Positions 36,776-39,243 of a stretch of 64,000 nt of DNA are shown in pieces. A program made the translations under genes and the position numbers. Origin of the DNA: Micromonospora carbonacea (GTDB lineage: Bacteria > Actinomycetota > Actinomycetes > Mycobacteriales > Micromonosporaceae); assembly GCF_014205165.1 (NCBI RefSeq), contig NZ_JACHMZ010000001.1:620001-684000 (forward strand). Reading direction: 5' to 3'. How positions within the stretch are numbered: the stretch's first letter is position 1; every line of letters begins with the position of its first letter. Below the pieces are notes generated by a model. That model worked only from the letters and a program-made list of their open reading frames with translations. It did not search any database and was not told the DNA's origin.

Positions 36776-37861
<1,086 letters not shown>

Positions 37862-37904
37862 GGCCGGTCAGGTCATGCGCGCGGCTCGGATCGGTTCCGC
37901 TCAG

Positions 37905-37927
37905 CGGTGGTAACACCGTGGTATGGT
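37905..37927 (+). promoter_or_regulatory. Operator and -10 element of the toxin-antitoxin pair
   Basis: CGGTG-GTAA-CACCG (37905-37918) is a perfect 5-bp inverted repeat. TATGGT at 37922-37927 ends 6 nt before ATG 37934. The antitoxin probably binds here and represses its own leaderless transcript. Confidence 0.5.
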
Positions 37928-37933
37928 CGGTGA

Positions 37934-38173
37934 ATGGCGAGGACGAAGAAGGTCACCATCACGCTGCCGGCAGAGCTGCTGGAGAGCATGAAGACCCACA
38001 CCGACAACGTCTCCGGCTACCTCACCGAGCTGGCCGAGCGGGCCGAGCGGCGCAGACTTCTCCGGGAGGAGTTGGACCGCTACCAAGACGAGCTCGGGGC
38101 GTTCACTGACGAGGAGATGGCCGAGGCTCGGGCGCTGTTGCACGGAACCGAGGAGATCGGGCGCGCGGCGTGA
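37934..38173 (+). CDS. vapB: Ribbon-helix-helix antitoxin
   Basis: A 79-residue protein with an N-terminal ribbon-helix-helix pattern (KKVTITLPAELLESMKTHTD and VSGYLTELAER) and an acidic C-terminal helix (DEEMAEARALLHG) likely to bind the toxin. It overlaps the toxin gene by 4 nt (GTGA). The name VapB is inferred from the neighbouring PIN-domain toxin. Confidence 0.82.
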   Translation: MARTKKVTITLPAELLESMKTHTDNVSGYLTELAERAERRRLLREELDRYQDELGAFTDEEMAEARALLHGTEEIGRAA

Positions 38174-38565
38174 GCCTTGAGTCGCTGGTGCTCGACTCGC
38201 AGGGTTTCTCAAGGTGGATCGACCAGGATCGAAAGGTGATGCGCCTGTTCGAGCAGGCGGAGCGTGATGGGGTCGACCTCGCCATGTCGGCGGCCACCAT
38301 CATCGAGGTCTCCCACTCCGGTCTGGACATCGCGCGGCTGAACTGGTTGCTGTCCCGAATCCGAGTCGAGGCGGTGACGAAGGAGAGTGCCCGTCGCAGT
38401 GCCGGGCTGCTGAAGGCGGCCGGGCTACACGGGCACAAGTACGCCATCGACGCCATGGTCGCCGAGGTGGCGCTACGGCTACCCGCACCGGTGGCGGTCC
38501 TGACCTCCGATGTCGACGACATGGTCAAGCTGTGCGGGAGGCGGGTGCGGACCATAGCGCTGTAG
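38170..38565 (+). CDS. vapC: PIN-domain toxin, VapC-like
   Basis: A 131-residue PIN-domain ribonuclease toxin. Acidic metal ligands are in LVLDSQGFS, TIIEVSHSGLDIARL, HKYAIDAMVAEVALRL and TSDVDDMVKLC, the four-acid pattern of VapC. GTG 38170 overlaps the antitoxin stop. The target RNA is unknown. Codon use is less GC-biased than in nearby genes, fitting acquisition by transfer. Confidence 0.87.
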   Translation: MSLESLVLDSQGFSRWIDQDRKVMRLFEQAERDGVDLAMSAATIIEVSHSGLDIARLNWLLSRIRVEAVTKESARRSAGLLKAAGLHGHKYAIDAMVAEVALRLPAPVAVLTSDVDDMVKLCGRRVRTIAL

Positions 38566-38622
38566 GTGGGTTCTCCGACGGCCGCGACGGTGCGTCAAGC
38601 TGTTGATCGGCGACGCAACCCG

Positions 38623-38651
38623 GTGGAGTTCCGCTTCAACGTCTGAGGCCG
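38623..38651 (+). repeat. 29-bp direct repeat, right copy
   Basis: Identical to 37838-37866; here it is not part of a reading frame of a recognised gene, so it is a relic of the ychF end. Confidence 0.9.
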
Positions 38652-38715
38652 CTCCGCCGATGAGTCCGCCGGCCGGCGGCGGTCCACCCGACCGACCACC
38701 GACGAACGGAGCACC

Positions 38716-39243
38716 ATGGCCAAGCTGCTGTACTCGGCGACGGCGTCGCTCGACGGCTACATCGCCGGCCCCGGCGGCGACATGTCCTGGCTGACCGAGC
38801 ACCTGACGGGCGAGAACCCGACGGCGGAGCGCCTGCTGGCCGGGGTCGGCGCGATCCTCGCCGGCAACGGCACCTTCGGCGGCGGCGACCCCAACCGGGG
38901 CACCGACAAGGAGGGCGCGTTCGGCGGGCAGTACCACGGGCCGGTGTTCGTGCTCACCCACCGGCCGCCGGCCGAGCCGCACCCGGGGATCACGTTCGTC
39001 GGCGACCTGCCCAGCGCCGTGGCGCAGGCCGGGGAGGCCGCCGGCGACCGCTACGTCAACGTCCTCGGCGCGGACGTCGCCCGCCAGTGCGTCCGCGCCG
39101 GGCTGCTCGACGAAGTTCTGATCTTCTTCGCTCCGGTGCTGCTCGGCGCGGGGGTGCGCATCTTCGACGACCCGGGCGGGCCTGCCGTTCGACTGACGCC
39201 GATCCCCGGCGAGACGGCCCACTGGTACCGCGTCGCGTACTGA
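38716..39243 (+). CDS. Dihydrofolate reductase-like (RibD C-terminal domain) protein
   Basis: A 175-residue protein of the RibD-C/DHFR fold: MAKLLYSATASLDGYIAGPG at the N terminus, ILAGNGTFGGG and VLGADVARQCVRAGLLDEVL with FFAPVLLGAG at the C terminus. The family reduces pterins or flavin precursors with NADPH, but the substrate is not known. ACGGAGC lies 4 nt before ATG 38716. It is the first gene after the islet. Confidence 0.87.
   Translation: MAKLLYSATASLDGYIAGPGGDMSWLTEHLTGENPTAERLLAGVGAILAGNGTFGGGDPNRGTDKEGAFGGQYHGPVFVLTHRPPAEPHPGITFVGDLPSAVAQAGEAAGDRYVNVLGADVARQCVRAGLLDEVLIFFAPVLLGAGVRIFDDPGGPAVRLTPIPGETAHWYRVAY

Follow-up and report, generated by a model that had tools for sequence, protein, structure and literature searches.

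How did a toxin–antitoxin-like gene pair in Micromonospora carbonacea come to lie between two copies of the 3' end of ychF? The window analysed here, a stretch of 64,000 nucleotides from a genome assembled as a single contig of 7.53 Mb, contains a direct repeat in which 31 of 32 nucleotides (97%) are identical at a spacing of 785, and 29 bp of it are exact (Table 1), as a preliminary description of this DNA had stated. The first exact copy comprises the final seven sense codons of ychF, the stop codon and 5 further nucleotides; the description had correctly seen the gene end with its stop and a few bases, while counting eight codons. Its idea of an att-like site proved largely right. In related genomes, elements with different integrases use the same DNA site as the vapBC pair next to ychF, and the pair accordingly resembles a mobile islet that has been pared down and lacks its own integrase.

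Table 1. Features at the 3' end of ychF, in positions of the window
Feature	Position	Strand	Basis
ychF, redox-regulated ATPase YchF; host gene, with the integration site at its 3' end	36776..37861	+	TIGR00092, 434.8 (cut-off 279.2)
attB-like imperfect palindrome within ychF, GACGT-7-TTC-7-ACGTC (B-B')	37832..37858	+	exact in window
In-gene copy of the exact 29-bp repeat	37838..37866	+	repeat comparison
Islet left end; where other islets have the left-end motif TTCCGGTTCAACGTCTGCCGCC, degenerate in window	37862..37883	+	motif elsewhere
Antitoxin-like ORF, 79 aa, RHH-like, in VapB position	37934..38173	+	weak matches
VapC-like PIN-domain toxin ORF, 131 aa	38170..38565	+	PF01850, E 1.9e-5
Putative P-type half-site, islet right end, GTTGATCGGCGACGCAACCCGGTGGAG	38602..38628	+	LSR P half-site model; 12-nt spacing
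Second exact 29-bp copy; with the P half, a predicted attR-type P-B' site	38623..38651	+	repeat, spacing rule
RibD_C-domain protein, first gene past the islet	38716..39243	+	PF01872, E 3.1e-19

Only the vapBC-like pair was found between the two copies, an RHH-like ORF followed by a PIN-domain ORF, in agreement with the preliminary description. The smaller ORF matches CcdA (E 0.02) and a MazE-family antitoxin (E 0.0011), in both cases under the curated cut-offs. The larger ORF scores 25.7 bits against PF01850, above the Pfam cut-off of 23.6, and its residues D9, E46, D94 and D117, which we take to be residues with a role in PIN domains, are invariant in eight aligned homologues. A small RHH-like ORF followed by a PIN-domain toxin whose four acidic residues are invariant is the arrangement of VapBC type II systems; in contrast to these, the predicted VapC of the window stays well under the NCBIfam VapC equivalog cut-off (14.9 bits, cut-off 80). 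The A/T-richer codons that had been remarked on are borne out by GC3 values of 0.91 and 0.85 for the islet ORFs, whereas the values are 1.00 in ychF and 0.97 in the next gene. Among the islet ORFs, the ORF list and Pfam searches revealed no integrase, as the description had noted, and no transfer gene, transposase or large serine recombinase (LSR) gene. Integrase and transfer genes are thus absent as in a CIME, a cis-mobilizable element as defined in the available text of PMC5704250, and with neither Int nor RepSA-type Rep nor FtsK-type Tra among its ORFs the islet is not an AICE. The best listed LSR match of the window genome, with at most four candidates scored per genome, is 36% identical and lies 4.5 Mb off.

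Could the repeat have arisen by chance? A 1121-bp piece (37600-38720) has a match in 160 of 160 genomes of the genus, and among the matches listed its vapBC part is also closely matched in seven, the window's own included. From 154 further genomes and the window we gathered the DNA 3' of ychF over up to about 12 kb (155 genomes, 1.75 Mb), with shorter stretches at contig ends, several of only 526 to 5100 bases; this census omits G143, G149, G151, G153 and G154, for which the place of ychF was not listed, and G143 was examined separately. Searched as a degenerate pattern with at most 2 mismatches, the 20-bp core AGTTCCGCTTCAACGTCTGA occurs 37 times on the ychF strand, in 35 of the 155 genomes, and in the same 1.75 Mb it has no copy on the other strand, nor does the reversed pattern on either strand. 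When the search was relaxed to a 24-mer with 5 mismatches, noise increased: 24 matches lay on the forward strand and 28 on the opposite one, while the reversed pattern gave 1 and 7. For 26 of 150 ychF ends the last 20 nucleotides recur on the same strand within 8 kb (at most 2 mismatches), versus 3 of 468 control gene ends (Fisher 3e-14), and two of the latter three are local repeats of 24-27 bp. The strand, reversed-pattern and gene-end controls together exclude a chance origin. Across the whole window genome, a 24-mer of the repeat with up to three mismatches finds both copies and one other place, with three mismatches. Core copies remote from ychF were seen elsewhere (G048:C1:2602354 and 2604496; G043:C17:17461 and 18759; G008:C1:636906); some of this set are paired 1-2 kb apart and may be secondary att sites or relics.

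Insertion signatures at the end of ychF, counted as an integrase remnant, a core copy, a TA gene or the left-end motif described below, are present in 59 of the 155 genomes (38%). Of the 155, 33 have a tyrosine integrase gene, or what remains of one, convergent with ychF and no more than 400 bp from its stop, and in three of these the integrase match spans at least 359 residues. G008 holds a complete 12.28-kb element at ychF, with its far att copy at +12281 and genes for Int (PF00589), an HTH_17 Xis-like protein, RepSA (PF20199, E 6e-142) and an FtsK-family protein (PF01580). By this predicted gene content, with Int, Rep and Tra all represented, the element is an AICE resembling pSAM2-like ones (available text of PMC3218068 and PMC3364876). 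An 11-kb element at ychF in G002 (L047) carries a tyrosine integrase that differs from that of G008; it also encodes a 547-aa protein that by eye resembles a phage tape-measure protein and has no Pfam match.

Elements can also be stacked at this site, as seen in G012, G064, G090, G101 and G176. G101 has a distal att copy followed by a vapB-like ORF, and in G172 and G196 att cores lie ahead of vapBC, with ychF absent from the 1.5-kb flank. Att copies in series (L135 in G090, L158/L207 in G113, L182/L212 in G137) would fit an accretion of elements in tandem at ychF.

A second class of integrase emerged from the right end of the islets. A 35-nt right-end pattern, compared with 354 genomes of the family, matched at 7 places (control 0), six of which are islets and the seventh of which, in G215, adjoins an LSR gene. 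In three genera, represented by G215, G143 and G238, an LSR gene begins about 35 bp from a copy of the ychF end, with LSR identities of 90% for G143 and 58% for G238; in this family search, which scored at most four candidates per genome, such a copy was present at 3 of the 30 LSR loci fetched and at none of the other 27 at up to 4 mismatches. The G215 protein, on which the domains were examined, has the Resolvase and Recombinase domains of Pfam. ychF lies about 12.5 kb from the LSR-side copy in G215 and about 14 kb in G143, and is on a separate contig in G238. In phage records, all 914 of 914 LSR matches are below 60% identity.

The geometry of these sites is informative. The ychF end is centred on the TTC of Val-Glu-Phe with 7-nt arms, and reads B-B' at the genome's own ychF end in 155 of 155 genomes of the genus. 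At all three LSR elements (G215, G143, G238) attL reads B(7)-P'(12) and attR reads P(12)-B'(7), so that the attP arms are 5 nt longer than the attB arms of ychF. In the structure of a Listeria phage integrase, the zinc-ribbon motif is shifted by 5 bp between attB and attP (available text of PMC3783163). Because the arms show this shift, there is strong evidence, at the level of sequence, that the predicted sites of G215, G143 and G238 are true att sites. Insertion of the LSR elements alters the in-gene tail of YchF from VVEFRFNV to VVEFRHGGTSKSKS and similar sequences (G215 L270, G143 L382, G238 L383), and a C-terminus rewritten in this way may possibly affect YchF function. The conserved C-terminus is thus rewritten by LSR insertion and preserved by the islets. 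Elements have repeatedly integrated at the 3' end of ychF in Micromonospora and related genera, where it is a predicted attB of several integrases; the proposal of an att-like site at which the gene end is kept is supported.

The right end of the window islet (38602-38646) reads P(12)-B'(7) and is thus predicted to be of the attR type, as would be expected of a CIME. Its P half has p 1.6e-5 against 498,670 background positions in a P-half model built from the three LSR sequences. At p<=0.01 this model recognises 15 of 20 islet copies versus 0 of 27 other distal copies, in lists sorted by hand that place the copies of G079 and G098 outside both, with not every one of the 27 carrying an integrase remnant, and with islet counts that are not independent because several islets are related. 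By spacing, the left arms of the 20 islet distal copies divide into 11 P-B', 2 ties and 7 B, under a crude rule that also assigns P to 2 of 7 copies of the integrase type. Upstream of the distal copy, the islets have a common sequence like GTTGATCGGCGACGCAACCCG-GTGGAG despite their differing cargo. The preliminary description had also entertained a target-site copy; since the attB is shared with integrase-bearing elements and the right end is of attR type, the repeat does not look like a target-site duplication, and one made by a transposase is further dismissed by the lack of a transposase gene in the islet.

The fit is not uniform, and the P-B' model accounts only partly or not at all for the copies of G012, G176, G268, G071, G206 and G209. 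The right ends of the HigBA islets (G012, G176) fall outside the P model, and those of G268 and G071 reach p 0.007-0.01 in it yet are B-type by spacing. At one locus outside the P-B' model (L221 in G176), HigBA is followed by a 164-nt duplicate of the ychF 3' end with 94% identity, 708-871 past the ychF stop, then by vapBC and a third short copy.

Might the islet instead be what is left of a tyrosine-integrase element that entered ychF and then lost all but vapBC? The G008 AICE, with its Int, Xis-like, RepSA and FtsK genes, does occupy the site, as do the integrases or remnants of the 33 genomes. However, repeat copies of the integrase type start at -18 to -22 and have a right flank unlike that of the islets, whose copies start at -23 to -35 (one, past HigBA in G176, at -162). 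None of the 16 genomes with TA genes or the left-end motif has an integrase remnant, and none of the 27 other distal copies fits the P model. We consider such a relic distinctly unlikely.

At the other end, 3' of the ychF stop, many islets have in common the motif TTCCGGTTCAACGTCTGCCGCC. At 15 or more of 22 positions it is found at 19 of 193 ychF ends, with VapBC-I, VapBC-II, GNAT and unknown-protein cargo, a score that is partly circular because the consensus was drawn by eye from the islets first seen, and in a sample in which 38 ends are family loci picked for a VapC match or core copy. The motif also picks G017 and G035, whose next genes are no known islet cargo, and the window genome, with its degenerate motif, is outside the best 45 listed. 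Recoding of the ychF tail itself, with AGR, TTT or AAT as R-F-N codons, marks 6 of the 16 genomes that carry a TA gene or the motif versus 1 of 139 others (p 3e-6), as listed by hand and with G096 and G104, which have TTT one codon earlier, uncounted. This would indicate that the islet brought the coding tail with it; the window's own tail is ordinary and shows no recoding.

The in-gene ends of the islet carriers read B-B' in 18 of 18 cases, the window included, where a CIME attL would read B-P'. They are therefore not the attL of the known LSRs, and the islet is no ordinary product of attP and attB. This B-B' reading would be explained if DNA carrying a ychF 3' end and vapBC had recombined one-sidedly with the resident ychF and left the old end downstream. 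Campbell-type and homology-facilitated illegitimate recombination are candidate routes for such an event, with which the variable left boundaries of the islet repeats and the ychF duplicate past HigBA in G176 also agree. If the joins were random, however, islets of different cargo would not be expected to have a P-type right end and its 12-nt spacing in common, and no donor-like ychF appears in the ychF tree (region -600 to -27), so that we regard this route as unlikely.

We favour, with a probability of roughly 0.6, the reading that the window islet is a CIME-like, integrase-less element with a right end of the serine-recombinase type, a putative relic or satellite of LSR elements; it is CIME-like rather than a CIME because of its in-gene end. 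In this reading, the ychF 3' end would serve as attB for several integrases in the family, and a minimal islet of about 785 bp with one vapBC-like pair and no integrase would have settled there. Its right boundary would be a serine-recombinase attR (P-B'), in which an LSR-type P half is joined to the displaced ychF 3' end. An LSR presumably made this junction, whether it acted in trans or belonged to an ancestor from which the LSR gene has since disappeared, and ychF would have stayed intact because its coding end was supplied on the islet side. A B-B' in place of a B-P' at the in-gene end requires a second step, which might be repair of ychF, or the action of an LSR, as yet unseen, with a P' arm that resembles the end of ychF. 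More tentatively, the islets could be one family of mobile cassettes at ychF, with a left end and, at the right, a serine-type P half in common and with exchangeable cargo (either VapBC type, GNAT or an unknown protein), mobilised in trans by LSRs from resident elements and bringing a recoded ychF tail that keeps YchF intact, in an integron-like capture at a gene 3' end; this we find possible, if rather doubtful.

How mobile are the islets? Their cargo includes VapBC of types I and II, GNAT and an unknown protein of 203-208 aa, and with the HigBA islets this answers the suggestion to look for the same repeat beside other cargo. The VapC proteins at ychF are of two types, about 50-56% identical. 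VapC is present in 11 of 160 genomes of the genus, with one copy at ychF in eight of the 11, and it lies 275-2245 bp 3' of ychF at 38 of 46 loci examined, drawn from 68 genomes with a match. In a tree of ychF 3' DNA (24 rows; the region given above) the genera group cleanly and the Micromonospora clade is kept. In contrast, a VapC tree (28 rows) rejects a single clade of the seven Micromonospora VapC (AU p 0.0025) and joins G156 to three Actinoplanes-like genomes with support 100/99. The conflict between the trees, with VapC at the same site, indicates that the islet moved between genera. On these sequence comparisons we conclude that the islet is genuine and related to att sites, and that it has been mobile over evolutionary time. 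A new route for the spread of TA pairs, as had been proposed, is only partly supported: the VapC tree shows transfer between genera into the same site, but att-flanked, integrase-less CIMEs are already known.

Relatives without vapBC, which the preliminary description had asked for, are G097 and G102, so that relatives do not all carry both repeats and the pair. In these two, the window's phosphoglycerate-mutase-like gene (named by eye) follows ychF after 259 bp and 62 bp, respectively, and G097 retains a fragment of the RibD_C gene after ychF; a base-precise empty site was not found in either, as the DNA after ychF has diverged or been partly lost. The nearest carrier is G042.

An old, vertically inherited neighbourhood of ychF and vapBC, with a functional second copy and an immobile islet, would account for the closeness of the two at 38 of 46 loci and for the right flank common to vapBC-I islets of several genera. 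Among the best 80 of at least 575 named VapC loci, 11 bear genus names that we take to belong to the family of the window; ychF lies within 3 kb in 10 of these 11 but in none of the remaining 69, most of them from Streptomyces, which makes the link to ychF a trait of the family rather than of VapC in general and could likewise reflect such inheritance. Set against this are the presence of VapC in just 11 of 160 genus genomes, the conflicting trees, the two VapC types and other cargo at one site, and the absence of vapBC from close relatives; a vertical origin is accordingly very improbable. One Streptomyces VapC (S. durbertensis, L312) is 82% identical to that of the window and has no ychF within 3 kb. 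In plasmid records, VapC has 6 matches, the best at 61%.

The exact 19-bp core also occurs in thirteen IMG/VR viral contigs. In L388 and L391 an LSR gene begins within about 80 bp of the core and the site scores as P-B'; in L386, L392 and L395 a tyrosine integrase gene ends within about 160 bp, its product 28-32% identical to those at ychF here; and integrase matches near the core of L387 and L397 are partial or weak. L385 and L389 contain, of ychF, only the last 22 codons, and L397 seems by eye, from translation, to hold the very end of the gene, as if another integrase restored a longer gene end in these three contigs. In the open-access literature searched we found no report of the ychF 3' end as an integration site. 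As described in the available parts of the respective reports, a pneumococcal satellite prophage sits upstream of ychF and another prophage has its attB between a DUF951 gene and ychF, both different sites.

How does the islet compare with known systems, as far as the available texts describe them? It has in common with CIMEs (PMC5704250) that integrase-less DNA occupies an att site at a gene end with other elements stacked alongside, but at about 0.6-0.9 kb it is far smaller, carries just one TA or other cargo, and combines a B-B' end without a proper attL on the ychF side with a serine-type right end. AICEs may use the same gene end, as in G008, whereas the vapBC islet has none of their genes and different ends, and AICEs of the tyrosine type are reported to occupy mostly tRNA 3' ends, with the exception of the pSLS subfamily (PMC3218068). 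With LSR elements and prophages (PMC3783163), which have an LSR gene beside the att site, it shares the 5-bp arm shift between attB and attP and the P-B' junction, but lacks the LSR and the P' arm.

In conclusion, an odd repeat at the end of ychF becomes a testable case of how TA pairs may settle in chromosomes, in the form of a minimal, apparently att-flanked islet at a conserved protein-coding gene whose 3' end also hosts AICE, phage-like and serine-integrase elements. The LSRs of this site, for which both attB and attP can be predicted, are candidate genetic tools for Micromonospora and Actinoplanes.
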